A stretch of DNA of 64,000 nt from a virus. Where the stretch lies: IMG/VR virus record IMGVR_UViG_3300029267_004887, positions 62,001 to 126,000 of that record, one strand, 5' to 3'. The notes under the pieces are model-generated. The model ran no database searches. It saw only the letters and a list, made by a program, of their open reading frames with translations, and was not told the origin of the DNA. A program made the translations under genes and the position numbers. Below, one piece after another: positions 2,546-36,986 of this stretch (position 1 is its first letter; every line of letters begins with the position of its first letter).

Positions 2546-2937
2546 TGTCGCTTTTTTTATTTTTGCTCATAGGGTTTTCTGTGACCAATGCGTTGACTTT
2601 TCTTCATGTTTTTTTATGGTTTCGGACATTGGTTTCTGGTGTTTCTGACAAGAAGTTCGAACATATTGTTTCAAGAGACAATGACGATACTGTCCCTTAC
2701 AGTGTATTGAAACGTTTTACCCTGTTTCGATATGAGTATTTAGGAAGGCTTGTTCGGTGCCATGCGTGCATGGGGTTCTGGGTAGGCGTTTGTTTGTCAT
2801 TGCTACAGGGAGGGTTTATAACTGAGTATATGCAGTGTGCGTATGATTTGTTCTTTTTGTGGGATGGTTTCTTGCTTTCAGGTTCGAACTTTTTCATTTG
2901 GCTTATTGCTAGGAAACTAGGAGCTGAGGAGTTGTAA
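2545..2937 (+). CDS. Membrane protein with CxxCxGFWxG motif (DUF1360-like)
   Basis: 130 residues from ATG 2545, chosen over TTG 2539 because it overlaps the preceding micro-ORF stop. There is a strongly hydrophobic N-terminal segment (SLFLFLLIGFSVTNALTFLH), a polar loop, then CHACMGFWVGV leading into a second hydrophobic segment and a third near the C-terminus. The C-x2-C-x-GFW-x-G pattern resembles DUF1360-type integral membrane proteins (family knowledge, moderate match). It ends with TAATG overlapping the tape measure start. Its place between chaperone and tape measure is unusual, and its role is unknown. Confidence 0.55.
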   Translation: MSLFLFLLIGFSVTNALTFLHVFLWFRTLVSGVSDKKFEHIVSRDNDDTVPYSVLKRFTLFRYEYLGRLVRCHACMGFWVGVCLSLLQGGFITEYMQCAYDLFFLWDGFLLSGSNFFIWLIARKLGAEEL

Positions 2938-6681: not shown

Positions 6682-8039
6682 TGTCTTTCAGGAGTTTATT
6701 TATCGATGGTCGGATTTCTAATCCAGCGACTGGCAGGTTTACAGATCTGAAAATAAAAGGTGAAGAGACCTTGCCTTATTTGGAGAGTGTATCGATTGAT
6801 TTGGAGAGAGGTGCGAATTTAAATATCAGCATAACACTTGCTCCTCCTTATGAAAAAGCGATTGAATTGATTTCGAAAGATAATGAATGGCTCAGGTTGG
6901 GCAACACGTTAGGGGTAAGGTGGGGTTATTCTGATATGCCTGGGGCCATATCTGATTGGTATTATGGTTTCATGCAAATGCCGGAAGTATCGTTTGGTGA
7001 GGAGATTTCGATAACGATTCCTGCAACGACATTGGCTTGGAATGCAGATCGGGTAGAGAGGGTCAGGAGTTGGGCATCTGAGGAGTCTCCTCGGACATTT
7101 CGAGAGGTAGCGACAGAGATAGCAGAGAGATATGGGCTGAAGGTTGAATTTGGAGAGTTGAGCAAAAACGTGAAGTCGATGGTTGATGAACCACAGACGT
7201 CCATGGTGCAAGGTGGACGGACTGATATGCAATTTTTGCTTCAGGAGTCTGAAAAATTTGGGATTCGGATGATTTCTCGCAATCAGTTTTTGTATTTTGT
7301 TGATGCAGCAGCTCCGTTACCTGGTTATCCGGATGTGAATGCAACGTTTCAAATGTATGGAAAGATTGACATTTGGAACAATATTTTTCCAATGACGTCT
7401 TTCGATCCCGAGTCGATGGGTGCTCTTTTTATTCGACAGTTTCAGGGGACGAATACATTGGCTTATGGTCCAAACGATGATCCTGAAGTGGAGAAGGATC
7501 CGAGTGTATCGACGGACAAGACAGCTCAAGTTGCTGCTTTTACGTCCAAGGAAACTGTTGCTGCACCGCCAGATGTCGACGGTAAGCCTCCTCAGAAGAT
7601 GGGGGATGTGAAGACTAAGGCAACAATCAAAGTCGATTCTGCTGGCGATGAGGGGGGTAGGATTATGTGTCTACCCTTGAACGGCAAGGAGACGAAAGGT
7701 TTTATCGATGGGATATTATCTGGGGTGAGAGAATCGACAGCGGAAGATCATGGTATTTCGGCTGGGTTTAGTTGTTTTGCTGTACCCAATTTGATTCCTG
7801 GCATGTTTGTCAGGCTTCAGGGAATAGGCGATTATTTTTCCGGAACGTACATGTTGAACAAAATCAGTATCAAGCTAGATAGCAGTGGGGGGGAGATGGA
7901 TTGCCAGGCATTTGGAAGAGGTTTTCCGAGTGTCAACAGAGATCTTGATCCTTTTGCTGCGACGGTTGAAAAACATGTAGAGCCTGTTGTGGACAAGTGG
8001 TTTGATGCATTGTTGACTGATACCAAGAAACCGGAATAA
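6681..8039 (+). CDS. Baseplate hub protein (gpD / gp27-like late control D)
   Basis: 452 residues with a GTG start overlapping the previous stop by one base. The N-terminal region (about 20-110) has the hub-type strand sequence ending in WYYGFM, followed by a gpD-like middle with FREVATEIAERYGL near 130 and 'TDMQFLLQESEKFGIRM' near 180, the signature of the phage late control D/VgrG N-half fold. The C-terminal part (350-430) has 'GVREST...GFSCFAVPNLIPGM...G.GDYFSGTYMLNKIS', typical of hub barrels that dock the tail tube. It forms the trimeric hub with the spike gene that follows. Confidence 0.75.
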   Translation: MSFRSLFIDGRISNPATGRFTDLKIKGEETLPYLESVSIDLERGANLNISITLAPPYEKAIELISKDNEWLRLGNTLGVRWGYSDMPGAISDWYYGFMQMPEVSFGEEISITIPATTLAWNADRVERVRSWASEESPRTFREVATEIAERYGLKVEFGELSKNVKSMVDEPQTSMVQGGRTDMQFLLQESEKFGIRMISRNQFLYFVDAAAPLPGYPDVNATFQMYGKIDIWNNIFPMTSFDPESMGALFIRQFQGTNTLAYGPNDDPEVEKDPSVSTDKTAQVAAFTSKETVAAPPDVDGKPPQKMGDVKTKATIKVDSAGDEGGRIMCLPLNGKETKGFIDGILSGVRESTAEDHGISAGFSCFAVPNLIPGMFVRLQGIGDYFSGTYMLNKISIKLDSSGGEMDCQAFGRGFPSVNRDLDPFAATVEKHVEPVVDKWFDALLTDTKKPE

Positions 8040-15928: not shown

Positions 15929-16831
15929 ATGCAGGATAAAAGCGTTTTTGAATATGTAACAACCAGGGCTATTCAAACTACTAATGGTTTTTCACAAAGT
16001 TCAAAGTTAGACATGGACGTGTGGGGAGATCCGCTCAGTGGGTTGTTCAGTCCAGGAGTTGTCAGGGCATCGGTTCGTGTTTTGGCCAACAACCCAGACG
16101 ATTTGGATGATTCATATTGTTGGCAATTGGAGTCAGTATATGATTGGGGCAAACCAAAAGAGGATTGGACAGCTCGAAATAATTTCGATCAAATAGGAGC
16201 AACAAACGTTACCCTGATCTCAGGACCAGCTACTCCGGTGTGCGAAGCTTCGTTCAAGCAGGGCGTTGGTAATAATGATTTGTATTTGGAGTACAGGGGG
16301 GAAACAGGTAAAACTTACGATTGGCATTGGGAAATCAGGCTGACGATGTTCTGTTCGATTAAAGAAGGTAGAGGCTATCCACCTCGTTTGACAGTGCAAA
16401 TTAGTTCAGGGATGGAACCTGCTGAATCGTGGTGCGGCATGACAGAGGGTATTCACACGGTGGTACCATCTGGTTATGAGATTAACAATTATTCGCCTTT
16501 GTATAGTACATATAGGAAGAACAAAGAGCATTTTTCAATTTATGATACGACTAATACAAGCTATCTTTATCTTGATGCGATTGCGAGATATGCTACTTCA
16601 GCTAACTATACTTATTCTAGTAAATTTCAATTTTATTGGGGGATGAGAAGCACCTCGACCGCAGTTACGACGACTACCGCTTCTTCGGGTGCTCCTCCAA
16701 CGGGAATAAATGGATTACTTCGTGATACCATGTTGGATAGAACGGTTGTGATAGGCTCCGGTCCCACTGAAGTAACATTTCAATGGGAAAGGTTCAGCGG
16801 TGATCCAGCAGGTTTGTGGGGAAACTACTAA
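15929..16831 (+). CDS. Fibre-region virion protein, unknown
   Basis: 300 residues with an AAGGAGAC ribosome site. It is beta-rich and aromatic (YCWQLESVYDWGKPKEDW, TYDWHWEIRLTMFC) with scattered cysteines and a Thr/Ser-rich linker near 240 (STAVTTTTASSGAPP). No repeats and no catalytic pattern are visible. Tryptophan- and tyrosine-rich beta proteins in fibre clusters often bind sugars, but no known carbohydrate-binding family is identified. It ends 11 bases before the sulfotransferase-like gene. Confidence 0.55.
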   Translation: MQDKSVFEYVTTRAIQTTNGFSQSSKLDMDVWGDPLSGLFSPGVVRASVRVLANNPDDLDDSYCWQLESVYDWGKPKEDWTARNNFDQIGATNVTLISGPATPVCEASFKQGVGNNDLYLEYRGETGKTYDWHWEIRLTMFCSIKEGRGYPPRLTVQISSGMEPAESWCGMTEGIHTVVPSGYEINNYSPLYSTYRKNKEHFSIYDTTNTSYLYLDAIARYATSANYTYSSKFQFYWGMRSTSTAVTTTTASSGAPPTGINGLLRDTMLDRTVVIGSGPTEVTFQWERFSGDPAGLWGNY

Positions 16832-16842
16832 GGAGAGAAAAG

Positions 16843-17967
16843 ATGTCAGATAAAACAAATGGTGGAGTCATAGCGGTTAGTGGGTGTCCTAGGAGTGGAA
16901 CTAGTTTAATGATGTTGTTGTTACGTGAGGCACTTGGAAAGGAGCGGATATTTGGAGAGAAATTTCCACAGCAAAAAAGACGTGAAATATTGAATGCAAA
17001 ACCTGAAGATGCACGTCATGCGTGGAGATTATATACTGTCAAGTCGAATGAGCAGGAAGATTTCGAATGGCTTGAGCAGACAAAAGACATGAATCCTAAT
17101 GGGTTTTGGGAATGTATGTATACGACTCAAGGAATTCGCTGGGCTCGTGGAAGGGCCAAGGTTTTGGATGAATTGTTGCGCAAGAAGAAGTCTCCGGTGT
17201 GTAAGATTGTTTCACAGGGGCTAGCTCGCTCTGATGCAAGATATATTAAGAAGGTTGTTTTTATGTTGAGAGATCCTGGCAGTGTGGCCAAAAGTCAGGA
17301 GAGGCTTAAGAGAAAACTTGATGTGATTGATTTAAAAAACAAACAAAAGCAAGATTTGTTCAAGGGGATAATTGTAAACAACACGCAGATGTTTTTACAA
17401 GTGACGTTAGCAGCTGCTCAATGGATGAAAGATCACCCGAGTGTTCCTGTGCATTTTGTGAGGTACAACGAATTATTGGATGATCCCAAGAAGGTTTTAG
17501 ATGAGGTAAATTATTTTCTTGAAGAAGGCGATTTCAAGAAAGCGGTTAAGTTGATAAATCCAAAGTTGAAACGTAGCAGTCCGGAATGGGATGATGGGTT
17601 GAGAGAGAATGCTGAGTATGTATACAGCAAGTTGAAAGAACAAGATTTTGGTGCGTTGGAAAGTTTTGCCAAAGATCCAGAGACTGTGTTGGCGGAGAGG
17701 TTGACGGCATGGGTTTGTGTTCGAACAGGTTTGCAAGTTGCCAAGAGATTTTGTGAGGATTGTCAGGACGGTAAGAAGTATCGTCAGGATGCAATTGCTC
17801 ATGCGGTAATGTATGGTATAGACTGGAAGAACCTTCCTTGTGCGTATGACGTCTCTTATCGCAAAGACAATTTTGTTGATACTTTTGTAGAAGGTGGGGA
17901 TACGATTGAGACAGCTTTTGAAAAGGCGACAGCTCAAAGTATCAAAGAAAATTTTTGGACTGAGTAA
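16843..17967 (+). CDS. Sulfotransferase-like protein (PAPS-type P-loop)
   Basis: 374 residues from ATG 16843, preceded by AAGGAGAG. Residues 8-27 contain the 5'-phosphosulfate loop (VIAVSGCPRSGTSLMMLLLR), with the PRSGTS hallmark of sulfotransferases, and 'KKVVFMLRDPGSVAKSQ' near 140 fits the 3'-phosphate-binding motif, with conserved Arg and Ser. The spacing between them agrees with the family. Such enzymes move sulfate from PAPS to a sugar, lipid or protein hydroxyl in the cytoplasm. The gene lies between two fibre genes and shares their gene spacing, so a fibre or host-glycan substrate is possible (inference). An unrelated P-loop kinase is less likely because the PRSGT loop is specific. 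Confidence 0.7.
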   Translation: MSDKTNGGVIAVSGCPRSGTSLMMLLLREALGKERIFGEKFPQQKRREILNAKPEDARHAWRLYTVKSNEQEDFEWLEQTKDMNPNGFWECMYTTQGIRWARGRAKVLDELLRKKKSPVCKIVSQGLARSDARYIKKVVFMLRDPGSVAKSQERLKRKLDVIDLKNKQKQDLFKGIIVNNTQMFLQVTLAAAQWMKDHPSVPVHFVRYNELLDDPKKVLDEVNYFLEEGDFKKAVKLINPKLKRSSPEWDDGLRENAEYVYSKLKEQDFGALESFAKDPETVLAERLTAWVCVRTGLQVAKRFCEDCQDGKKYRQDAIAHAVMYGIDWKNLPCAYDVSYRKDNFVDTFVEGGDTIETAFEKATAQSIKENFWTE

Positions 17968-17977
17968 GGAGTGAAAA

Positions 17978-20680
17978 ATGCCGCCTCTTTCAACAGCAAG
18001 AAATCAGATCAATTGGAAGTCTGGCACTTTTGATTTTATCAGTGCTTCAATCAAGTTTCGGCCAGATGCATCGGTAACAGCTGATTATGTTTGTACGGTG
18101 CACCCTGATTCACTGGAGTTGTTGTTGGTTTCTAGTCCGCCCTCGACCACTACTGGCAAGCTTTATAATCACAGTGGCAAAATCAAATGGGATGGCGAAG
18201 GGTTGGCATATGATTCAGAGGTTATTCATAACAATGTTGCATCTGAGATTTCAGCTGTTACCGAGAAAGCGACACCTGTAAGTGGTGATCTTCTTTTGAT
18301 TGAGGATAGTGCTGACTCGAACAATAAGAAGCGGGTTCAAGTAGGCAATCTTCCTGGTGGAAGTGGGACAGATCCGGATGCTATTCATGATAATGTTGCA
18401 TCTGAGATTTCAGCTGTTACTGAGAAAGCGACACCTGTAAGTGGTGATCTTCTTTTGATTGAGGACAGTGCTGACTCGAACAACAAGAAGCGGGTTCAAG
18501 TAGGTAATCTTCCAACAGGATCAGATACTGATGCCATTCATGACAACGTCGCATCTGAGATTTCAGCTGTTACTGAGAAGGCGACACCTGTAAGTGGTGA
18601 TCTTCTTTTGATTGAGGACAGTGCTGATTCCAACAACAAGAAGCGGGTTCAGGTAGGCAACTTGCCTGGTGATGCAGATGCCATTCATGACAATGTCGCA
18701 GCGGAGATTTCAGCAATTACTGAGAAAGCAACGCCTGTAAGTGCTGATATGCTTCTGATTGAGGATAGTGCTGCTGGCAATGCTAAGAAGATGGTCGAAA
18801 TTGGTAATTTGCCAACAGGGGCAGACGTGGATGCCATTCACGACAACGTTGCAGCTGAGATTTCAGCGATTACTGAGAAGCCAGCACCCGTCAGTGCTGA
18901 TTTGGTTTTGATTGAGGACAGTGCCGATTCGAATAACAAAAAGCGAGCACAAATTGGAAATCTTCCGGTTTCAGATTCAGATGCGATTCATGACAACGTC
19001 GCTGGTGAGATTTTAGCTGTAAGCGCAAAGCCAGTACCTGTAAGTGCAGATTTGGTTTTGGTTGAAGACAGTGAAGCGTCTCATGTAAAAAAGCGTGTTC
19101 AAGTAGGCAATCTTCCAAGCACGGATTCAGATGCGATTCACGATAACGTCGCATCTGAAATTTCAGCAATAAGCGCAAAGCCAGTACCCGTTAGTGCAGA
19201 CATGCTGTTGATAGAAGACAGCGCTGATTCAAACAACAAGAAGCGAGTAACCATTGGAACATTACCGACAGGATCAGATGCTGATGCTATTCACGACAAC
19301 GTGGCATCTGAAATAAGTGCAGTCACTGAGAAAGCGACACCTGTAAGTGGTGATCTTCTTTTGATTGAGGACAGTGCCGATTCGAATAACAAGAAGAGAG
19401 TTCAGGTAGGCAACCTCCCAACGGGATCAGATGCTGATGCTATTCATGATAATGTTGCATCTGAGATTTCAGCTGTTACTGAGAAAGCGACACCTGTAAG
19501 TGGTGATCTTCTTTTGATTGAGGACAGTGCTGATTCCAACAACAAGAAGCGGGTTCAAGTAGGCAACCTCCCAACGGGATCAGATGCTGATGCGATTCAT
19601 GACAATATTGCGGCTGAGATAAATGCGATCACTGAGAAAACGACTCCTGTTAGTGGCGATTTGGTTTTAATAGAGGATAGTGCCGATTCGAATAACAAGA
19701 AAAAAGTACAGCTTGGCAATTTGCCAGCAGGCGGGTCGAATAAGCTTTTCGAAACTGAAATATCATCTGCTACGAATAGTATTAGTGTTACTGGGTTGGC
19801 TGGTGTGACACGAGCGGTGATGTATCTCGATCATATTAATGGAAGTGCATCTTTTGCGGACATTAGAATATATGTGAACAGCGATACTACTGATTCAAAT
19901 TACAGAGCTACGTATTTATGGGGTAATGGGTCGACAGCGTCGTCTAATACTGCATCGAATTCGTTGATGTGCAACACGAAAGCCAGCGAAAAGGCTCATC
20001 TCAAAGTAGAGTTGGCTGTTATAGATGGTGAGTTTTGGGCGAGAACGACGCATACTTTGCAAGCTACAGCAGGTACACCTGAAGTTACGGCAAGATCAAT
20101 AATAAAAGTCAGTGGTTCTGTTACTGACTTGAGCGGAATGAGTTTGAGTTCCGTTGCGAATGGTTTTGGTGTTGGGACAAAGGTTGTTGTAATCGACCCA
20201 ATGGCAGCAGTAGTTGAAGAGCGAAAAGTAGCTATATTCGAGGATCAGAAAGCAGCTGGTACACACGGTGGCACGTTCACTTCTGGATCGTGGCAAGATC
20301 GGACGTTGAATACAACAGTTGTTTCAGCTACAGGTATTACGTTAAGTTCGAATCAGGTAACGTTGTCACCGGGGTATAAATATCTAGTGTCATATTGTTG
20401 TCCAGGGTATTTGACGTCCAGGCACAAGGCGAAGTTGTACAATGTGACAGATACAGCAGATGAACACATAGGTGAATCAGCGTATTCAAATACCACTAGT
20501 CCAAAGTCATCAACTACTAGTAAGGGCGACTACGTTGTAGATTTGACAGCTGAGTCATCCAGTAAGACTTACAAGCTTCAACATCGATGTGAAGTAACAA
20601 TGGCAGATGTTGGGATGGGGCTTGCATCAGATTGGTCAGTGGTTGAGGTATATTCTCGAATGAAAGTAGAGAGGTTGTAG
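17978..20680 (+). CDS. Long tail fibre with ten 50-residue repeats
   Basis: 900 residues. Residues about 80-585 consist of ten copies of the unit found in the 14274 gene (IHDNVASEISAVTEK, then PVSGDLLLIEDSADSNNKKR and VQVGNLP). Copies 1-3 and 8-9 are almost identical, and copies 4-7 are diverged. The C-terminal 300 residues hold two beta domains, the second with a 'GTHGGTFTSGSWQDRTLNT' element common at phage fibre tips. This is probably the main host-contact fibre. Repeat number can vary by recombination, changing fibre length (inference). Confidence 0.7.
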   Translation: MPPLSTARNQINWKSGTFDFISASIKFRPDASVTADYVCTVHPDSLELLLVSSPPSTTTGKLYNHSGKIKWDGEGLAYDSEVIHNNVASEISAVTEKATPVSGDLLLIEDSADSNNKKRVQVGNLPGGSGTDPDAIHDNVASEISAVTEKATPVSGDLLLIEDSADSNNKKRVQVGNLPTGSDTDAIHDNVASEISAVTEKATPVSGDLLLIEDSADSNNKKRVQVGNLPGDADAIHDNVAAEISAITEKATPVSADMLLIEDSAAGNAKKMVEIGNLPTGADVDAIHDNVAAEISAITEKPAPVSADLVLIEDSADSNNKKRAQIGNLPVSDSDAIHDNVAGEILAVSAKPVPVSADLVLVEDSEASHVKKRVQVGNLPSTDSDAIHDNVASEISAISAKPVPVSADMLLIEDSADSNNKKRVTIGTLPTGSDADAIHDNVASEISAVTEKATPVSGDLLLIEDSADSNNKKRVQVGNLPTGSDADAIHDNVASEISAVTEKATPVSGDLLLIEDSADSNNKKRVQVGNLPTGSDADAIHDNIAAEINAITEKTTPVSGDLVLIEDSADSNNKKKVQLGNLPAGGSNKLFETEISSATNSISVTGLAGVTRAVMYLDHINGSASFADIRIYVNSDTTDSNYRATYLWGNGSTASSNTASNSLMCNTKASEKAHLKVELAVIDGEFWARTTHTLQATAGTPEVTARSIIKVSGSVTDLSGMSLSSVANGFGVGTKVVVIDPMAAVVEERKVAIFEDQKAAGTHGGTFTSGSWQDRTLNTTVVSATGITLSSNQVTLSPGYKYLVSYCCPGYLTSRHKAKLYNVTDTADEHIGESAYSNTTSPKSSTTSKGDYVVDLTAESSSKTYKLQHRCEVTMADVGMGLASDWSVVEVYSRMKVERL
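18218..19737 (+). repeat. Ten tandem coding repeats of about 147-165 bp
   Basis: The units each encode the DAIHDNV...VGNLP module, with length differences confined to the linker (for example PGGSGTDP against PGDA). Several pairs share long stretches of identical DNA, including the segment coding TPVSGDLLLIEDSADSN. They are homologous to the four repeats at 14736, so recombination between the two fibre genes is possible. Confidence 0.85.
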
Positions 20681-28448: not shown

Positions 28449-30311
28449 ATGGCCACGAGGAAATTTTTGTATGGTGATAGTAACGGTTATCATCGAGAGC
28501 AAGATCCCGCTGATGACATAGCTCTTGGTGGGCTCGCGATGAGCGGGAACATTACCATGGGGACGAATCAAATAACTGGTTTGACTGGTGGTGATGCTTC
28601 TGGAGAAGCTTTGGCCTATGGTCAGAGTGGCGCGTCTCTAGCTGGCTTGAGTATCGACACCAGCGAACTAGATATGAACAACCAGCAGATAACCAACGTA
28701 GCAGACGGCACGGTGTCGCATCACGCTGTGAATCTGTCACAGCTTGAGCAGGCGGTTATCACAGGTGGGACAATCAAGGAGCTGTTGCTCCATGAAGATC
28801 AGGTTGACGATACGGAAGGTGTGTTGGCATCTTCGGCATTGACCATCGCAACGAATCCAGCCTCGGGCGATACGATTACGTTGACAGATGGCACGACCAC
28901 CAGGACGTACGGTGCTGGCACAGGTGGCGATGTACAGTACACCATCGGTGCTACCGTAGCAGACACCATGCAGAACCTGGCTACTGCGATTGACGGCGAC
29001 GGTTCTGGTGCTTGGGGTGCGACATTCACGACGGATCTGGACTCGATTGATGCTGACGGTGTTGTGGTTATCACAGAGGAAGACAACGACGGTGCAGCTT
29101 CTGAGATTTACGGTACCTGGACAACTCAGGCGAATTGTCAGATCGTCGATTACACTGAAGAAACGCAGTACAGCAAGAAGACGACGACAGCACTTCCTAC
29201 TTCCGATCCAGCGGCTACCAACTTTGGTATTCGCAGGACTCAGGCTTCCTTGTCACCTGGTGAGCTTCACTATGTTGAAGACAATGACACCATTTACGGA
29301 TGGGACGATGATGCTGAGCAATGGAACGTGATGTCCGGTTCTGCATCTCTTCCGGACGCGACGTCTGCATCGGGTGGTGGAGTCAAGGGTAAGGTCACCT
29401 TCGACAGAGACTTTGGTCTTTTGGTCAACACTGGTATCGCGAAGATTTCAGTAGCGGCCAACACAGGGCTAGGGTTTGACGGAAATGGCGATCTTCAGGG
29501 TGTTGCCGACACCACAGCGGGTATGGAGCTTGGCGCGAATGGTTTCGGAATCGATATTGCTGCGTCTAATCCTGGTGTTGGTTTCGACGGCAGCGGCGAT
29601 CTCGAAGCGAAGGCGGATACCACGGCTGGTATTGAGATAACGGCAAATGGTATCGCGATTGACATTGGCGCTACCAATCCAGGCGTTGGTTTCGACGGGT
29701 CTGGAGATCTCGAAGCCAAGGTTGTGGCAGCTGGTGGTGTTGAGAAGGCGGCGACTGGTCTTCAGATCAAGATCGACGACACTCCCGATACCTTGGATGT
29801 TGACGCAGACGGGCTCAAAGTCGTCGGTCTTCCTTCTACATTCAAGATCAACGACACAGCAGTTGGCGCGACGGTAACAGCGGCCAATCTCGACACGGTA
29901 ACCGATGGGTCGAATGCAGATGCGATGCATACTCACGCAGGTGTCGACGAGGCGAAAGCGATTGAGAATTCGCTGACGGCAACTGAGAATGTAACCATTG
30001 GCGACCCGGTATACGTTGATACCAATGGTAACGCTGTGTCCAAGGCAGATGCCAGTAACGACAGCAAGTACGAAACAATTGGTGTAGCCAAGGCGACAAT
30101 CACGGCCACCAATCCTGTAGACGTCGTTTCATTTGGCCCTTGCGATGTTATTACTGGCGCGACAGCTGGAGACAGGTATTACATGGCAGCGGGCGGTGGA
30201 TTGACTACTACGGTTCCGGCAGCTGGAAACTGGGTTGTCGTCATGGGGTTTGCGCTGGATGCAAATACTTTGTTCGTCATGCCGAGGATTCTGCACAAAC
30301 GGTTCGCATAG
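28449..30311 (+). CDS. Large fibre-like virion protein with triplicated beta repeats, C-rich coding
   Basis: 620 residues. Its N-terminus (LGGLAMSGNITMGTNQITGL ... LDMNNQQITNVADGT) is a phage fibre entry motif, and 130-225 is a 'DTITLTDGTTTRTYG ... ATVADTMQNLATAIDG' module. At about 340-430 the unit 'GFDGSGDLEAKADTTAGIE.TANGIAIDI' occurs three times. The C-terminus (about 520-620) has 'IGDPVYVDTNGNAVSKADAS' and 'YYMAAGGGLTTTVPAAG', resembling DUF2190-like decoration proteins. Codon use is visibly richer in C and G than neighbours, and the gene is followed by the strong hairpin at 30328, suggesting high expression. Confidence 0.6.
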   Translation: MATRKFLYGDSNGYHREQDPADDIALGGLAMSGNITMGTNQITGLTGGDASGEALAYGQSGASLAGLSIDTSELDMNNQQITNVADGTVSHHAVNLSQLEQAVITGGTIKELLLHEDQVDDTEGVLASSALTIATNPASGDTITLTDGTTTRTYGAGTGGDVQYTIGATVADTMQNLATAIDGDGSGAWGATFTTDLDSIDADGVVVITEEDNDGAASEIYGTWTTQANCQIVDYTEETQYSKKTTTALPTSDPAATNFGIRRTQASLSPGELHYVEDNDTIYGWDDDAEQWNVMSGSASLPDATSASGGGVKGKVTFDRDFGLLVNTGIAKISVAANTGLGFDGNGDLQGVADTTAGMELGANGFGIDIAASNPGVGFDGSGDLEAKADTTAGIEITANGIAIDIGATNPGVGFDGSGDLEAKVVAAGGVEKAATGLQIKIDDTPDTLDVDADGLKVVGLPSTFKINDTAVGATVTAANLDTVTDGSNADAMHTHAGVDEAKAIENSLTATENVTIGDPVYVDTNGNAVSKADASNDSKYETIGVAKATITATNPVDVVSFGPCDVITGATAGDRYYMAAGGGLTTTVPAAGNWVVVMGFALDANTLFVMPRILHKRFA

Positions 30312-30327
30312 TAACTTAGGAGGACAG

Positions 30328-30360
30328 GCTCCGGAGAATTCTCTCCGGGGCTTCGTCTTT
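30328..30360 (+). terminator. Rho-independent terminator-like hairpin
   Basis: Arms GCTCCGGAGA (30328-30337) and TCTCCGGGGC (30342-30351) pair with one mismatch around an ATTC loop, followed by the T-rich TTCGTCTTT. The T-run is imperfect, but the GC-rich 10-bp stem directly behind the large fibre-like gene makes a terminator or mRNA-stabilising structure likely. Confidence 0.6.
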
Positions 30361-30367
30361 GAGGTCT

Positions 30368-30931
30368 ATGGATAGAATTCGTCCACTAAAGATAGAGAGT
30401 ATTTCTGGGGGTGGTTCTCAGGATAATGTCTATCCGCATGACATGAATCCTAACGAAGATGGGGTAGAGGTTCGTGGTGTCTTGTTGCAAAATGATACTT
30501 CGGACGATGAGGTAGTGGTTGTTTCCAGGGATGCTTCGAACAACATGACGTTTGAGGACGGTGTTGTAAGCGGCACGAAAACACTGACTGAGTTATTGAG
30601 CGGCAGTGGTGGGTTGACTGAAAACTCTCACCGGATATTGAGACAGTTGATTCATTTCATCGACGATGGTCCGGCTGAGGGGTTTACCAGTGGGGCGTAC
30701 AGAGAAGTTACGGGGACAGTCTTTCCGACTTCGATCATTTGGTATACAGATAGTGGGAAAACTGAAAAAATAGTTGAGAAGAATATTACATGGTCTGGTG
30801 TGACTCCGACGACGATTGAGTGGAAAATGTACGACGAAGACGGCAGTACTTTATTAGTGACGGTATCAGATGCGATTACTTATTCGGGTATTTTCGAGAC
30901 AAGCAGAACGAGAACGATAACGATTGAGTAG
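30368..30931 (+). CDS. Virion protein behind the terminator, unknown
   Basis: 187 residues from ATG 30368, preferred over TTG 30359, which would lie in the hairpin T-tract. Residues 1-60 carry beta-type sequence with 'NVYPHDMNPNEDGVEVRGVL', and 55-150 has the phage motif 'LTENSHRILRQLIHFIDDGP', a 'QLIHF...GP' start of a fibre/neck module, followed by Ig-like strands (VEKNITWSGVTPTTIEWKM). No enzyme motif is visible. It starts a run of accessory virion genes. Confidence 0.5.
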   Translation: MDRIRPLKIESISGGGSQDNVYPHDMNPNEDGVEVRGVLLQNDTSDDEVVVVSRDASNNMTFEDGVVSGTKTLTELLSGSGGLTENSHRILRQLIHFIDDGPAEGFTSGAYREVTGTVFPTSIIWYTDSGKTEKIVEKNITWSGVTPTTIEWKMYDEDGSTLLVTVSDAITYSGIFETSRTRTITIE

Positions 30932-30939
30932 GTGAGGAA

Positions 30940-31335
30940 ATGTCTGTGAGAATCTGTGGCGAATGCACTGCGTGCTGCAAGTCAGTTGCTTTGCCAGAGT
31001 TTAACAAGGCAACGAATGAGCCGTGCGAGCATCTCCGGGAGGGCTGCGGGATACATGAAACTCGTCCAGAAAGTTGCCGTGCTTTTCAGTGTGCTTGGCT
31101 GTCGAAAATGACGGGATTCAAAGATGAGAGTATGCGTCCAGATCGATGCGGTGTGGTAGCGGCAGTTGGTCCGACGGAGCACGGCAGGGGCGTGTATTTT
31201 TATTCAGTCTGGAAAGGCGCAACGGACGAGGATAGAATCCAATCGATTATGAGAATATACAATCTCAGGTTCCCTATTTTGCTAGTTTCTCACACGGGGA
31301 ACAGGGGCGGACTGCTCAAGGCTGGAGAAGCGTAA
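30940..31335 (+). CDS. YkgJ-like cysteine-cluster protein, copy 1
   Basis: 131 residues. Cysteines at 6, 9, 12, 13, 29, 36, 46 and 51 form the C-x2-C-x2-CC ... C ... C ... C pattern with 'GCGIHETRPESCRAFQCAWL', the signature of YkgJ-type zinc/iron-chelating proteins. This family probably binds Zn or Fe-S (family knowledge) and is linked to metal- or modification-related functions. A clear paralogue lies at 34351, and both share the second half with 'SMRPDRCGVVAA.GPT.HG'. The gene stop overlaps the next start by TAATG, and both copies lie between virion genes. Confidence 0.65.
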   Translation: MSVRICGECTACCKSVALPEFNKATNEPCEHLREGCGIHETRPESCRAFQCAWLSKMTGFKDESMRPDRCGVVAAVGPTEHGRGVYFYSVWKGATDEDRIQSIMRIYNLRFPILLVSHTGNRGGLLKAGEA

Positions 31336-31547
31336 TGGTAGATGGAATTGCACGGGTTTTATACACGGCTGACGGCGAAGAGATAACCGTTTACGAAAAG
31401 GCTGGAGTTCAGTCTATCGCTATTCAGTCAGTTGATATGATTCGTTTATTGAGAGACATAAAACAAGAATTGCGTAAGATGAATTTCCAGTTGAAAATTA
31501 TCACTGGATTGAACGTGAGCGAAAACGACTTGGAGGGACAAGAATGA
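31335..31547 (+). CDS. Small phage protein, helical C-terminus
   Basis: 70 residues, starting inside the preceding TAATG and overlapping the next gene by ATGA. It has an N-terminal beta part (ARVLYTADGEEITVYEKAG), then helix 'SVDMIRLLRDIKQELRKMNF' and a 'ITGLNVSENDLEG' tail. This small protein type recurs next to fibre genes in other phages, in my recollection. No function is known. It is probably an accessory to the adjacent virion proteins. Confidence 0.5.
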   Translation: MVDGIARVLYTADGEEITVYEKAGVQSIAIQSVDMIRLLRDIKQELRKMNFQLKIITGLNVSENDLEGQE

Positions 31548-32143
31548 GCGGTATTATTATAGACGGTTCGGGGAAAGGTTTTAACGCCAAGGTCAACCAA
31601 CGTCAAGAGCTTCAGGTGCAATCCAGGGCGATTCCTCATGCAGCATTGAAATGCGTTAGGGGAGAAGTTTTTTTGGTCTCTACACCGTGGAGAAATATAG
31701 ATTCCACTGGTGGTAGGCTTATTTGGATGTTGTTTTCAGATCCTGTCAAATATTTGGTAATAGAACAACTGATGATTGCTTGGGATGGTGGAAGTACCAA
31801 CTATAATAAACCTTTGGAAGTTGAATATATACTTGGTGACAGTGCGCCGACAACAGGTACTGCTGCTTGGGCAGCAGCAAATACAAACTCCTTGAGCACT
31901 AACGAATTAGATGCGACGTTGTTAGTTTGGGACGGTACAACAGGAAGCGGTATGACTGGGCATACGCCAGGTGCAGCAGCAGGAAGATTACAGGCAGCTC
32001 CTGGTTATACGTCATCTCTAGTTGAGGGGAAGATGATCGTTGGGTCAGGGATGACATTATCAGTTAACGTCAAAGCGCCAGAAACAGGCCGGATGTCTTT
32101 TTCTGGGTATTTATATTTGTTTGATCCAGAAGTAGACGGTTAG
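31544..32143 (+). CDS. Accessory virion protein with DGSGKG N-terminal motif, first copy
   Basis: 199 residues overlapping the previous gene by ATGA. It begins 'IIIDGSGKGFNAKVNQRQEL', a leading motif shared in diverged form by the next two genes (DGTGRG, DGAGSG). The remaining sequence is beta-rich with 'WDGGSTNYNKPLEVEYILGDS' and 'VEGKMIVGSGMTLSVNVKAP', typical of a jelly-roll-like virion domain. The shared start suggests a common attachment element for a set of appendage proteins (inference). Confidence 0.55.
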   Translation: MSGIIIDGSGKGFNAKVNQRQELQVQSRAIPHAALKCVRGEVFLVSTPWRNIDSTGGRLIWMLFSDPVKYLVIEQLMIAWDGGSTNYNKPLEVEYILGDSAPTTGTAAWAAANTNSLSTNELDATLLVWDGTTGSGMTGHTPGAAAGRLQAAPGYTSSLVEGKMIVGSGMTLSVNVKAPETGRMSFSGYLYLFDPEVDG

Positions 32144-32152
32144 GAGGAACAA

Positions 32153-32731
32153 ATGGGGTTTCGTATTGAAGATGGCACTGGTCGTGGTCGGACTGCGAAA
32201 GTAAACGAGTTGAATCGTCTTGAGGTTTCGGCTGTTACGCTCACGGAGATTTCAGACATAGCACGTAGCGGAGGTGCCTTTTCTGTTGTCGCAAGGCATA
32301 CGATCCAAGCCGATTCCACTGAAGAAAATTTGTTGTATATCAAGAACAACAATGACGCCAAGTGTATACACTTGCACAGCATCCGTCTTGCGGCAAAGGT
32401 CACAGCGGCTGGTCTCTTAGTTATTAGTTATTTCGATCCTGTTCGAGTCAGCGGGGGGACTGAAAAAGAGGCGGTGCAATTGAATCGGCAAAAAGCGAAG
32501 GCGGCAGATGCCGATTTGTATGATAATTCATCAAATGATCTTTCGTTGACGTTGACAGCGGCGAAGGAATTCGCAGAATTTCGTCTTGGTGCCACTGGCA
32601 CGGCGTTTTTTGAGTCAGATGGTGCGTTGGTTTTGGGGCCTGGAGATACATTTGGCATGACGGCAGAGGGGATAGATGGGGATTTGGTTACTGCTTCGAT
32701 TTTCTTTTTTGAGGCTGAGGAGTCGAAATAA
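32153..32731 (+). CDS. Accessory virion protein with DGTGRG motif, second copy
   Basis: 192 residues with an AGGAGG ribosome site. It starts 'RIEDGTGRGRTAKVNELNRL', the same opening unit as the previous gene. The rest has beta-type sequence ('HTIQADSTEENLLYIKNNND', 'RLAAKVTAAGLLVISYFDPV') resembling phage appendage modules. It lacks any repeats or catalytic motif. It is one of a set of three consecutive genes built on the same N-terminal unit. Confidence 0.55.
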   Translation: MGFRIEDGTGRGRTAKVNELNRLEVSAVTLTEISDIARSGGAFSVVARHTIQADSTEENLLYIKNNNDAKCIHLHSIRLAAKVTAAGLLVISYFDPVRVSGGTEKEAVQLNRQKAKAADADLYDNSSNDLSLTLTAAKEFAEFRLGATGTAFFESDGALVLGPGDTFGMTAEGIDGDLVTASIFFFEAEESK

Positions 32732-32734
32732 AAA

Positions 32735-34354
32735 ATGCCTGTTGATGTGCACATAAAAGACGGGGCTGGAAGCGGATGCACTGCCAGCGTGACTCCGGTA
32801 GGTGGAGGTAGGCCAGAACTTGCTGTGTCCATCGAAGGGCCTTGGGATCGTAGTAAATCTGGAGATATAAAGAAGATTTCTGCAATTGAGTTATCGACAA
32901 ACGGGAAGAGTGTTGCGGGTTTTCAAATTACTGGCGAATGGGTTGGCAATATTGTTTTTGAGAGCACGATAAATGGGTATGATTGGACGGATTTGATCTG
33001 TTTCCCGACAGCTCCTGGTTCTACATTGGTTATCAGCACGTTGGTGAACGGATCATTCCGGGCGGCTTGTGGAGCATTTCAGTCTGTCCGCGTGCGTGCC
33101 GAATCGTGGACTAGTGGTACGGCCCGTGTATTGCTTCGTGCCTCGCCATCACCGGCAGAGCTTGTTCCGTTGTCGATCAATAGTGCTGGACGTTTGCTGG
33201 TAGATGTAGAGCCTTTGTCTGATCGAGGATTTCGCGCAGTAAAAGCTAATTCAGCTGGGCTTCCAGCGGTGTTGACGTCAGAAGGCACGGCACCTTTTGC
33301 TGTTGGCGGTGAAACGTTAAATATCGACATCAACGGAGATTCTCAGACTTGTAATTTCCCAACTTCAGCAGAATCAGCTGGTACGTCGACGTCTGGTGCT
33401 GATCCATCGGTTGATCTTGGTGGTAGCCGTAAAATGAAAGTCAGTATCGATGGTGGTGCATCAACAGAAATTGATATTGGGAAAGATCGAGTTGGTGGGC
33501 CTGATATTGCGTCAAGGATTGAAGATGAAATTCAATCCGACGTTCCGAACGGGAGCAGTGCTACTTGCGATTACAATGATACGACTCCAGGGCGATATGT
33601 TGTCACTAGTGGCTCGACAGGCAGCAGTTCGTCGGTGGTCATTGTTAATTCTGGCAAAGACAATATGGCTGATAACTTGAAGCTTGGTGTCGCTAATGGT
33701 GGTACTGAGGTATCGGGTGAGTCGGGGGATGATTATTCGGCAGATGACGTAGTGGTCGAATTGAATGCGCAGCTTACCGATATTTATGCGTATGTGGACA
33801 ATGGAGACGTCGTAATAGAGACACAAGACATCGGTGATTCTGCAACGTTAGAAGTGACAGGTGGCGCAGCAAATACTGATTTAGATTTTCCAACTGACGA
33901 GGTGACGGGCTCGCCAGCCACAGGTGCTGTCAATTTGGCAGTAGATGGATCGACGACTGAGCAAGTATTTCGGATTGAACAACATGCCTCGCGAGTGTTT
34001 ACGGTCACACGGCTGATCTATTCCATACGAGATTCTGATATGGCGTTGAACAAGTTCGGTGGGATTACCGCGTTGACAAATGGAGTGATTGTCAAGGTTG
34101 AGAATTCAGGTGAACCCTTGAGAGAGTGGTTTACGTTTAAGACCAACTCGGAATTATTGGCGAGAGCGCGTGATGGTGGCCAGCTGATTGTCGATGCTTA
34201 CACAGGTGGCGAAGATTTGATTCATGCTGATTTTTTGTTAGAGCCTGGGATACCGTTACGACCTGGGAGTGTGGACAAGATTCAGATTATTGTAAGGGAT
34301 GATCTGTCCTCGCTTACGAATTTTGATGTTTTGGCAGAGGGTTATCTCACATGA
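32735..34354 (+). CDS. Large accessory virion protein with DGAGSG start and two-domain body
   Basis: 539 residues. It starts 'HIKDGAGSGCTASVTPVGGG', related to the previous two genes. A beta domain at 30-150 is followed by a Gly/Asp-rich module at 185-400 with 'GDSQTCNFPTSAESAGTSTS' and 'NLKLGVANGGTEVSGESGDD', which resembles flagellin/hook-like inserts. The C-terminal 130 residues ('FGGITALTNGVIVKVENSGE' ... 'IIVRDDLSSLTNF') are paralogous to the C-terminus of the gene at 34743. It overlaps the second cysteine-cluster gene by 4 bases (ATGA). Confidence 0.55.
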   Translation: MPVDVHIKDGAGSGCTASVTPVGGGRPELAVSIEGPWDRSKSGDIKKISAIELSTNGKSVAGFQITGEWVGNIVFESTINGYDWTDLICFPTAPGSTLVISTLVNGSFRAACGAFQSVRVRAESWTSGTARVLLRASPSPAELVPLSINSAGRLLVDVEPLSDRGFRAVKANSAGLPAVLTSEGTAPFAVGGETLNIDINGDSQTCNFPTSAESAGTSTSGADPSVDLGGSRKMKVSIDGGASTEIDIGKDRVGGPDIASRIEDEIQSDVPNGSSATCDYNDTTPGRYVVTSGSTGSSSSVVIVNSGKDNMADNLKLGVANGGTEVSGESGDDYSADDVVVELNAQLTDIYAYVDNGDVVIETQDIGDSATLEVTGGAANTDLDFPTDEVTGSPATGAVNLAVDGSTTEQVFRIEQHASRVFTVTRLIYSIRDSDMALNKFGGITALTNGVIVKVENSGEPLREWFTFKTNSELLARARDGGQLIVDAYTGGEDLIHADFLLEPGIPLRPGSVDKIQIIVRDDLSSLTNFDVLAEGYLT

Positions 34355-34752
34355 GAAATTGTGATGGGTGCACGGCGTGTTGTACGTCGTTGGCAGTACC
34401 TGAATACGATAAAAAGACTAACGATGCGTGTGAGCATATTTGCATTGGGTGCAATATATACGCAGAGCGTCCCGAGAGTTGTCGTACTTTTCGTTGCACT
34501 TGGTTGAGTGAGGGCACTGGGTTTAAGGAATTGAGTATGCGTCCAGATCGGTGTGGTGTGGTAGCTGCGGGGGGGCCGACAGATCACGGTATTGGGATGT
34601 ATTTTTACGAGGTGTGGGAAGGTGCGATTGAAGAGGAGCGTATTCAGTTGATTATCGAGAAATACAATGTGAAATTTCCTGTTTTACTGATTCCTCATAA
34701 GGGGAACAAGGGACGATTATTTGCTGTTGGGGAGACCGGGCAATGCAATTAA
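34351..34752 (+). CDS. YkgJ-like cysteine-cluster protein, copy 2
   Basis: 133 residues overlapping the preceding stop. Cysteines at 4, 7, 10, 11, 27, 31, 34, 44 and 49 follow the same layout as the 30940 protein, with GCNIYAERPESCRTFRCTWL. The second half (SMRPDRCGVVAAGGPTDHG ... IIEKYNVKFPVLLIP) is parallel to copy 1. The two copies therefore come from a duplication that also copied the neighbouring virion C-terminal domain. No catalytic residue beyond the metal-binding cysteines is apparent. Confidence 0.65.
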   Translation: MRNCDGCTACCTSLAVPEYDKKTNDACEHICIGCNIYAERPESCRTFRCTWLSEGTGFKELSMRPDRCGVVAAGGPTDHGIGMYFYEVWEGAIEEERIQLIIEKYNVKFPVLLIPHKGNKGRLFAVGETGQCN

Positions 34753-35753
34753 CAGAACCAAAAATTACTCGTGCTCTAGATAACACTCCGCTTACGGCTG
34801 ATCGTCTTTTAAGGCTTGGGCAACAATCATTCAAGCGTACCGATAACGGTACTGAACCCATGAACGTAAACGGCATTCCTGTTGGGACAGTGACGAATAT
34901 TTGGGATGGTGATGGGAGTTACTGGACGGTAAGCGGTACAGGTTCTGCGACGACAGGATCAGCACATGCTGGCACGTATGGTTGGGATTCTGGAGTTGCG
35001 GGTAAAGACGTCACTACGGTGTTTGATAACGGGTCCATGATCGACGTTGGTGGAAGTTATAACAGCTTGAAATTTTGGTTGAATACAAAAGCGTTTCCAA
35101 GTGGTTCAAAGTTGTTGGTTACTTGGCTGAATGCGAGTGATAGTAGGGTGGGCAGCGAGCTTGATGTCGATGCTTACATTACGAGTTATGATATTGATAT
35201 TTGGCAGCAGGTGGTGATTCCGATTTCTGATTTTGGGCTTAGTGGTAACATTCAAAAGTTGGAGTTAAAGTACAAAAAGGAAGCAGGGCAACAATTTTGG
35301 TTTGACGAATTTGGTTTGTATCCGGCTGGTGGTGGAGGGCCTTACATATTTCAAGTTGTGGCACCTGATGCGAGCACGGTTTATCATATTTCGATGTTGG
35401 TGTTGATGATCTCAGAGGTAGAGACCGGGTGGGATGACGATACGTTTACAAATATCACAGCGTTGACAAATGGTTTATTGTTACGACAGCGGGATACCGA
35501 GTTGGAAGAAGACAATATCTTGTGGAGTTTCAATTCTAGAGACAACATCGATTTATTTGGAAGGTATCATCCGCAGGAGAATTTCATTTTCAATAACGGC
35601 AAAATGATGGTTGGTTTCATGGTCAAGCCTGGTAAGGCGTCTATAGAGATCACCGATACGCAGGTTTTGGAATTTGTTGTGCGGGATGATTTGTCGAGCA
35701 TTGACAACATTCGGGCGTATGCTCATTACGGGGTGGAGGTGATAGGTGGTTGA
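34743..35753 (+). CDS. Virion protein with jelly-roll-like domain and shared C-terminal domain
   Basis: 336 residues overlapping the previous gene by 10 bases. Residues 55-200 ('YNSLKFWLNTKAFPSGSKLL', 'DIWQQVVIPISDFGLSGNIQ', 'QQFWFDEFGLYP') look like a carbohydrate-binding jelly-roll module (fold style, not proven). Residues 205-336 are homologous to the C-terminal domain of the 32735 protein ('ITALTNGLLLRQRD' ... 'VVRDDLSSIDNI'). It could be an appendage that recognises a glycan (inference). Confidence 0.55.
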   Translation: MQLTEPKITRALDNTPLTADRLLRLGQQSFKRTDNGTEPMNVNGIPVGTVTNIWDGDGSYWTVSGTGSATTGSAHAGTYGWDSGVAGKDVTTVFDNGSMIDVGGSYNSLKFWLNTKAFPSGSKLLVTWLNASDSRVGSELDVDAYITSYDIDIWQQVVIPISDFGLSGNIQKLELKYKKEAGQQFWFDEFGLYPAGGGGPYIFQVVAPDASTVYHISMLVLMISEVETGWDDDTFTNITALTNGLLLRQRDTELEEDNILWSFNSRDNIDLFGRYHPQENFIFNNGKMMVGFMVKPGKASIEITDTQVLEFVVRDDLSSIDNIRAYAHYGVEVIGG

Positions 35754-36471
35754 TTTACGTAGAGCGCCGGTAGGAGAAGACAACAGACCGTATTATGCGC
35801 CAAACATGTTTCCGTCGGGGCACCTGACACAGTTTACTGGGATATATGACGACGTGGAAAACGGTGTAGAGAGCGGCGGTGATTTGATCGGTATTTCGTC
35901 ATCGGAAACAGAGGAAGCGTCTCAGACGATCAGGTTTATTAGGCAATTTTACCTCGGTGGTGGGGCTGCTGTTTGGAAAGGGGCGGTGTTTGGTGATTGG
36001 GTTAGCTTGGCTCTTTTTGGTCCTGCTACGGCTGGTACGAGTAATGAAGGTGCGGGTGTTTATGACAAATATCCTATTGGTGCTGGCATGAACATGTACA
36101 TCCCAAATGCTACTCAGACTGGCGATTGGGACTTGAATTTATCGGAAAAGCTGAACGAGAATGTGAGTTTTACCAAGGTTGTACCGATACCGGCTACTGC
36201 TCAGGATGGTTTTTTCAATTACGACAAAAGCACAGGTGTTGTTACGTTGAATCCGACACAGACTGGTAAGTACAATCTGTTTGACTTCAAGGTGCCACTT
36301 CATGTTTTTGTAAATAAGGTGGTTCTTGTTGGAGACAGTGTAGAGTTGTTTACAGTACCAGCAATCAAGCCATATTTATGTTTGCCGCACTGGGAAATAA
36401 AGCTGACTGTTTACAATTCTACGGCGAAAAGTTTGGAATTGGGAGCTACGCTTTACAGGGGGGTGGGATGA
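35746..36471 (+). CDS. Virion protein, beta-rich, partner of the preceding genes
   Basis: 241 residues with a GTG start inside the preceding gene (8-base overlap). The N-terminus (RRAPVGEDNRPYYAPNMFPS GHLTQFTG) is a proline/tyrosine-rich linker. The body is beta-rich, with a late 'TGKYNLFDFKVPLHVFVNKV' element reminiscent of the accessory modules upstream. It overlaps the permuted NlpC/P60-like gene by ATGA. No enzyme motif is visible. Confidence 0.5.
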   Translation: MVDLRRAPVGEDNRPYYAPNMFPSGHLTQFTGIYDDVENGVESGGDLIGISSSETEEASQTIRFIRQFYLGGGAAVWKGAVFGDWVSLALFGPATAGTSNEGAGVYDKYPIGAGMNMYIPNATQTGDWDLNLSEKLNENVSFTKVVPIPATAQDGFFNYDKSTGVVTLNPTQTGKYNLFDFKVPLHVFVNKVVLVGDSVELFTVPAIKPYLCLPHWEIKLTVYNSTAKSLELGATLYRGVG

Positions 36472-36986
36472 TACGGGACGTCCGCATTGTGTTCACAGCT
36501 CCCACCAAGTTGTCGAGTCGTATAGTTCAATACGTCACACGTTCACATGTGAGTCATGTGTATATCGAGTATCCCTCTGATTTATGGGGAGGGCGTTGGG
36601 CGGCTGAGGCAACGAGAGAGAACGGTGTGAGGAAGGTCGTGGCCAGGAAGGCTCGGCATGATGTCTGTGCTGAATTTTATTGTAAGTTCGACACACAAGC
36701 CGGTCTGGCGGCTGTGTCTAAATACCTGGGGGAAGATTACGATTATTTTGGTGTAGGTTTTTTTGGGCTGGTTATTTACGTCAAGCGGTGGTTTTCGGCT
36801 AAATTGAAACATCCTTTGCGGTCGTCAAAATCTCAATTTTGTTCTGAGTTTGTGGCCCGATTTTTCAAAGGATCGCACCTGGCCGGTGCAGAGGGCTGGG
36901 ATCCGGAGTTGTCGTCACCGGAGAGGTTGTATCGATTTTGCGAGAAGGATACAGGTAACTTTCAACGAGTTTGGAGTAGTCCATGA
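36468..36986 (+). CDS. Permuted NlpC/P60-like (papain-fold) protein
   Basis: 172 residues from ATG 36468, which overlaps the preceding TGA; longer alternatives run inside the previous gene. His27/His30 in 'TRSHVSHVYIEYP', a downstream Glu47 ('AAEATRENGV') and Cys125 in SKSQFCSEFVARFF form the His-first, Cys-last order of circularly permuted NlpC/P60 proteins (YiiX type). Such enzymes act on peptides, amides or acyl chains. A peptidoglycan or lipid substrate is possible for this phage, and the following VanZ-like membrane gene may be functionally linked. The fold is an inference from motif order. Confidence 0.6.
   Translation: MIRDVRIVFTAPTKLSSRIVQYVTRSHVSHVYIEYPSDLWGGRWAAEATRENGVRKVVARKARHDVCAEFYCKFDTQAGLAAVSKYLGEDYDYFGVGFFGLVIYVKRWFSAKLKHPLRSSKSQFCSEFVARFFKGSHLAGAEGWDPELSSPERLYRFCEKDTGNFQRVWSSP

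Follow-up and report, generated by a model that had tools for sequence, protein, structure and literature searches.

YkgJ-like cysteine-cluster proteins are widespread in bacteria, and we know of no function for any of them apart from that of FliB, which has a similar motif and is larger than the phage proteins considered here. We describe two YkgJ-like genes, ykgJ1 and ykgJ2, that lie among virion appendage genes in a 64,000-nucleotide stretch of viral DNA (the window), which is part of the 142,254-base IMG/VR record IMGVR_UViG_3300029267_004887. FliB, the Salmonella flagellin lysine methylase, is described as carrying a [4Fe-4S] cluster on a CX4CX3CC motif, as having eight conserved cysteines, and as methylating surface lysines of flagellin, an appendage protein; the same paper sets its cysteine motif against that of the Pfam family PF03692 (PMC8598068). 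For the phage locus we tentatively favor a related reading, in which YkgJ1 and YkgJ2 may be metal or iron-sulphur (Fe-S) factors, produced along with the appendages, that would bring these to maturity or attach covalent modifications to them. The observations behind this reading are the invariant cysteines, the duplication, the interleaving of the two genes with appendage genes, the overlaps of coding sequence, the recurrence of YkgJ-like genes by other fibre-like genes, and the presence of sulfotransferases in several of the loci.

The ykgJ1 gene (30940..31335) encodes a protein of 131 amino acids and ykgJ2 (34351..34752) one of 133 amino acids, both on the plus strand, as are the other genes of the run described below and the sulfotransferase gene at 16816..17967. 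The parallel cysteine layout reported in an earlier note on this DNA is borne out by alignment, the two proteins being 60–61% identical (61% for ykgJ2 as a sister copy of ykgJ1) and each of the eight cluster cysteines in one being aligned with its counterpart in the other. In YkgJ1 these are C6xxC9xxC12C13, C29, C36, C46, and C51, followed by R66-P67-D68. The eight cysteines, P43, and R66-P67-D68 are invariant across 50 of 50 aligned YkgJ-like sequences. The two genes are the sole matches in the whole viral record and are each other's nearest relatives on the YkgJ tree (98% support in the Shimodaira–Hasegawa-like approximate likelihood ratio test, SH-aLRT); because the two copies are sister branches, we conclude that the ykgJ gene was duplicated. 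Identity by codon position is 75, 80, and 41% for the first, second, and third positions, respectively, with a nonsynonymous divergence (dN) of 0.27 and a saturated synonymous divergence (dS). The copies thus differ mostly at third positions, as would be anticipated if the genes are retained for the protein that they encode, and they are old and constrained.

Both copies contain the CxxCxxCC motif and the eight conserved cysteines of PF03692 (CxxCxxCC/YkgJ-like), but score 17.1 and 16.5 bits, under the Pfam curated cut-off of 23. Matches to PF03692 at an expectation value (E) of up to 0.1 were found in 10 of 21 aligned members, the window pair included, the best being 2.8e-5. An NCBIfam search gave no match for the window copies. 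PHROG 9155, for which we know of no function, was matched at 3.5e-9 and 8.4e-5 across the cysteine core, leaving the C-terminal half uncovered. Since the window proteins fall below the Pfam cut-off and have a cysteine spacing unlike that of FliB, we assign them to neither family and call them YkgJ-like only. Several related genes were seen in passing, the L-numbers used here and below being our labels for the compared loci and records. A Halieaceae contig (L187) carries tandem YkgJ-like genes (1822-2496 and 2583-3071), one of which has the top identity to ykgJ1 among the bacterial matches listed (55%, residues 2-73). The YkgJ-like proteins of L032 and L081 have in common an N-terminal extension of about 75 amino acids, and the 190-kb phage G010 (L248) has, besides its YkgJ-like gene, two more distant cysteine-cluster genes (2907-3545 and 7134-7583).

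The two ykgJ genes are interleaved with appendage genes in a run on one strand from 28449 to 36471, with the consecutive order v0, vm1, ykgJ1, s70, v1, v2, v3, ykgJ2, v4, v5. The pair flanks the three virion genes v1 to v3 as had been claimed, although a previously unlisted gene for a 70-amino-acid protein, s70 (31335..31547), also lies in the gap between ykgJ1 and v1. Coding sequences overlap by 1 nucleotide at ykgJ1/s70, 4 at s70/v1, 4 (ATGA) at v3/ykgJ2, 10 at ykgJ2/v4, and 8 at v4/v5. The first 26 kb of the window contain tail genes, with matches to gp19-like tail tube, a T4-type baseplate protein, baseplate wedge, Tail_P2_I, and tail fibre, and replication genes (DnaB-like, Toprim, RecA-like) are placed past 53 kb.

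The appendage proteins in this run have domains in common. A DGxGxG N-terminal unit, previously proposed for v1 (31544..32143, 199 amino acids), v2 (32153..32731, 192 amino acids), and v3 (32735..34354, 539 amino acids), was recovered in local alignments of the first 45 residues, which scored 55 for v1/v2, 41 for v2/v3, and 33 for v1/v3 compared to about 19 for shuffled sequences; these scores were reached in 0, 0, and 3 of 1000 shuffles, respectively. The v2 protein aligns with v1 along its full length. In v3 the DGxGxG unit is followed by a middle domain, a further region, and a C-terminal domain (FGGITALTNG...VRDDLSS, 33920..34351). This C-terminal domain is repeated, as had also been noticed, at the end of v4 (34743..35753, 336 amino acids), where it reads FTNITALTNG...VRDDLSS (35337..35750); the N-terminal part of v4 is different and lacks DGxGxG. 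The two C-terminal domains are homologous, about 30% identical, and score 92 against 29 ± 4.9 for shuffles, with 0 of 1000 as high. The larger proposal that a metal-binding protein was duplicated together with an appendage module is supported for the cysteine gene but not for the module. A 197-nucleotide DNA repeat of 72% identity is the only long repeat and is confined to ykgJ, the similarity of v1 to v4 is not clearly beyond that of shuffles (23 of 300 as high), and a tree of 13 C domains, with 64/88 support and long branches, does not establish the v3 and v4 domains as duplicates made within this genome. For these reasons we regard duplication of the whole block as unproven.

The proposed course of events can be outlined from these features. 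YkgJ1 and YkgJ2 would be small, non-structural metal proteins, in which the eight invariant cysteines most likely hold an iron-sulphur cluster. They would be translated together with the distal-tail appendage genes, whose products they would act on ahead of assembly or while it proceeds. This action is most likely to be a covalent modification comparable to that of FliB, with help in metal insertion as a close second.

A close phage counterpart is in the Synechococcus cyanophage S-SRM01, whose 122-amino-acid YkgJ-like protein gave the best viral match to the predicted YkgJ fold (E 7e-9, template modelling score, TM, 0.64). Here YkgJ, the RCC1-repeat protein QPX48309.1, and a sulfotransferase are encoded consecutively, downstream of a tail fibre. 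S-SRM01 (QPX48308.1) and its freshwater relatives thus resemble the window in having a YkgJ-like protein of similar predicted fold, in their case mostly encoded directly upstream of the RCC1-repeat protein. They differ from it in that RCC1 repeats replace the DGxGxG/C-domain module, the YkgJ-like gene is single-copy, and the cluster is rich in glycosyltransferase and sulfotransferase genes, with a 2-oxoglutarate (2OG)-Fe(II) oxygenase gene as well. The contexts of 80 viral YkgJ loci, encoding 48 distinct proteins, vary. In L015, L032, L040, L081, L169, and L170 the YkgJ gene abuts or overlaps large virion-like genes, the neighbor being a collagen-repeat tail fibre in L081 (which when used as a query matched only itself) and a glycine-rich protein of 913 amino acids in L032. 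In L005, YkgJ is flanked by a sulfotransferase gene and a small gene, followed by a gene for a 1786-amino-acid protein. A Rhizobium phage has its YkgJ gene within a region of hypothetical genes, and other loci lie on prophage-like contigs or in regions of unknown content.

To evaluate the neighbors, YkgJ proteins from 97 loci were clustered at 60% identity, with the expectation taken from the other genes of the same loci; L001, L002, L086-L148, L167, L168, and L171-L178 were dropped as contig or window repeats. Genes in the compared loci were called by a simple longest-open-reading-frame script rather than a trained gene finder. A fibre-like neighbor on the same strand was found in 5 of 24 clusters compared to 2.05 expected (P 0.033), and at such joints the stop codon of one gene often overlaps the start codon of the next. 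With a looser threshold the number was 7 of 24 compared to 2.44 expected (P 0.003), but this P value is optimistic because the threshold was picked after the first had left out the window itself. This analysis replaced a test with single representatives at 45% clustering (fibre-like neighbors at ±1 in 2 of 13 clusters, compared to 16 of 257 genes in the background), which was redone at 60% with repeats dropped because it had lumped 137 sequences, repeats included, under a representative (L013) lacking an adjacent fibre gene. On the YkgJ tree the appendage label requires 6 changes, at least two of them forced by well-supported branches. Note that these labels were set by hand: L005, L010, L021, and L152 were labeled as appendage loci though YkgJ does not directly adjoin the fibre gene there, and L183 was labeled as other although it carries both an RCC1 and a sulfotransferase gene at a distance of some kilobases. 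The literature searched contained no published report of an association between a YkgJ-like protein and a phage fibre. For a wider tie of YkgJ-like proteins to the appendages of phages the support is modest, and we consider this tie real enough for testing.

Sulfotransferase genes accompany YkgJ in a number of these loci. PF13469 was matched in 7 of 28 YkgJ records (6 over the cut-off), these being hand-picked and fewer than the 97 loci above, and in 0 of 14 comparison records; because these are few and differ in length, the result is suggestive only. In L005 and L015 the sulfotransferase gene directly precedes YkgJ. The window has its own sulfotransferase gene (16816..17967, with an alternative ATG at 16843), which scores 31.1 and 31.7 bits against cut-offs of 22 and 27. 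It is situated 13 kb upstream of ykgJ1, between an appendage-like gene (15929-16831) and a tail-fibre gene (17978-20680), and we regard it as a candidate partner enzyme. The window and L005 sulfotransferases had 0 matches among 50,697 phage records. A wider form of the modification reading is that some phages keep a virion-finishing kit by their fibre genes, in which an Fe-S cysteine protein together with a sulfotransferase, joined in cyanophages by 2OG-Fe(II) oxygenases and glycosyltransferases, covalently decorates the fibres and alters adsorption or escape from defence; we consider this rather unlikely.

The virion genes of the window belong to a module that can be followed in other phages. 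A profile search with the C domain identified 12 viral loci, plus Vibrio phage PS25B.1. A pair of DGxGxG proteins, each about 190 amino acids long, precedes a C-domain protein of about 210 amino acids in L157, L160, and L165; L162 has a single DGxGxG protein and a C-domain protein, and L156, L158, and L166 have diverged forms. The same order, consecutive DGxGxG proteins ending with a C-domain protein, is found in v1, v2, and v3 and characterizes the module in L156-L162, L165, and L166. The C-domain proteins of those phages differ from v3 in that most have an HxHPP motif; an HxHPP-like motif (xHPP, mostly with a second His) follows the DGxGxG unit in L156, L158, L160, L162, L165, and L166. The L157 run opens with a vm1-like protein (131 compared to 37 ± 6.5, 0 of 500 shuffles), and a 351-amino-acid L157 protein resembles the middle of v3 (96 compared to 43 ± 7.1, 0 of 500 shuffles), indicating that vm1...v1-v2-v3 is an old virion module. 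Both the run of DGxGxG proteins and the C-terminal domain belong to widespread phage families.

A number of results count against a role for YkgJ in appendage maturation. The L157 run of vm1-like, v1-like, v2-like, and C-domain genes is syntenic with that of the window but contains no YkgJ gene. A YkgJ profile matched 0 of 14 records searched in full, of which 13 have a C domain and one (L154) has a v3-like match; many of the 14 are fragments, and three (L158, L159, L161) are mutually similar. In G010, vm1-like and v5-like genes stand in one run with no YkgJ gene between them, its YkgJ gene being about 8.5 kb away on the opposite strand. Because the module keeps its order elsewhere without YkgJ, this specific pairing is not conserved; an absence of linkage in other genomes, which the earlier note named as refuting its proposal, is what we see for these two families, whereas the looser juxtaposition of YkgJ with other fibre-like genes gains support. 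Marine cyanophages have YkgJ beside replication genes or beside DNA-methylase and helicase genes. Fibre-like neighbors are lacking in 17 to 19 of the 24 YkgJ clusters, and the neighbor statistic is itself modest and rests on a composition rule. As to the comparison with FliB, the spacing does not agree (CX4CX3CC in FliB, CX2CX2CC in the phage proteins). Searches of Pfam, PHROGs, and NCBIfam revealed no recognized S-adenosylmethionine (SAM)-binding or catalytic domain in the 131-amino-acid protein. The YkgJ structure model is mediocre (predicted local distance difference test, pLDDT, 71.6) and had no fold match in the PDB at E 0.001, and PDB sequence and fold searches with YkgJ gave nothing useful.

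The strongest rival, unlikely in our estimation, is that fibre loci are hotspots that gather accessory genes, here YkgJ, sulfotransferases, glycosyltransferases, and oxygenases, whose products act on the host, for instance on its surface or its handling of metals, rather than on the virion. The occurrence of the same virion module elsewhere without YkgJ fits such a passenger, as do the non-appendage sites of YkgJ in most clusters and its bacterial relatives, which are mostly solitary genes. Less easily explained are the overlaps of ykgJ2 with appendage coding sequences on both sides, the similar overlaps in several other phages, the retention of two copies in one module, and the repeated association with appendages on the YkgJ tree.

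The adjacency and the overlaps would serve equally for an assembly chaperone that aids folding or trimerization of the adjacent fibres, its metal site merely holding its own fold; T4 gp38 and Tfa are tail-fibre assembly proteins. YkgJ is found, however, both upstream and downstream of fibres, with unrelated fibre types, and also far from fibres, and it has no likeness to known chaperones in PHROGs, making this role improbable. A cysteine cluster would also suit a protein that puts iron or zinc into the appendages, which would connect the locus with iron-bearing tail fibres and with the Ferrojan horse idea. For T4 gp37, iron sites of the HxH type have been reported, and for marine phage fibres they are inferred (PMC11705849). 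The window appendages offer few candidate ligands, v4 having neither cysteine nor HxH and only v0 and v2 carrying HxH, one each, and the HxHPP motif that the C-domain module conserves belongs to phages without YkgJ; we consider metal loading quite improbable. The position of YkgJ inside a virion gene run would agree with its being a virion component itself, such as a joint that holds appendage pieces together through disulphides or metal. Against this, YkgJ also occurs among replication genes, in prophage-like settings, and in bacteria as a solitary gene, and we consider a structural role the least probable of these.

The remaining genes of the run supply its borders. The fibre-like v0 (28449..30311, 620 amino acids) has a YadA stalk match above the cut-off. 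Next to it, vm1 (30359..30931, 190 amino acids as called) is an appendage-module protein with homologues in the L157 and L247 virion modules, and v5 (35746..36471, 241 amino acids) is another, with a homologue in L069 (score 232, 0 of 500 shuffles). Directly past v5, at 36378-36986, there is a weak match, below the cut-off, to YaeF/YiiX permuted papain-like amidases. Searches by tblastn of the phage collection gave no match for v1 or v4, and v3 and the baseplate wedge had no close relatives in viral_contigs. A PDB sequence search with v4 gave nothing useful, and its structure model is poor (pLDDT 44.9); by eye, residues ~60-195 resemble a carbohydrate-binding beta-sandwich, with no Pfam match. 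The s70 protein shows a weak likeness to the ends of proteins that L162 and L165 encode upstream of their DGxGxG genes, two candidate relatives having scores that 4 of 500 shuffles equalled, and a motif search of the C-domain loci gave no s70-like proteins.

The recurrent tie between YkgJ, fibre, and sulfotransferase genes provides YkgJ-like proteins with a concrete and testable class of substrate, the phage fibres, and the cultured phage S-SRM01 is a present means of testing it. If the favored reading of YkgJ1 and YkgJ2 is true, the modification of receptor-binding proteins by phage-encoded factors would become a part of host-range biology.

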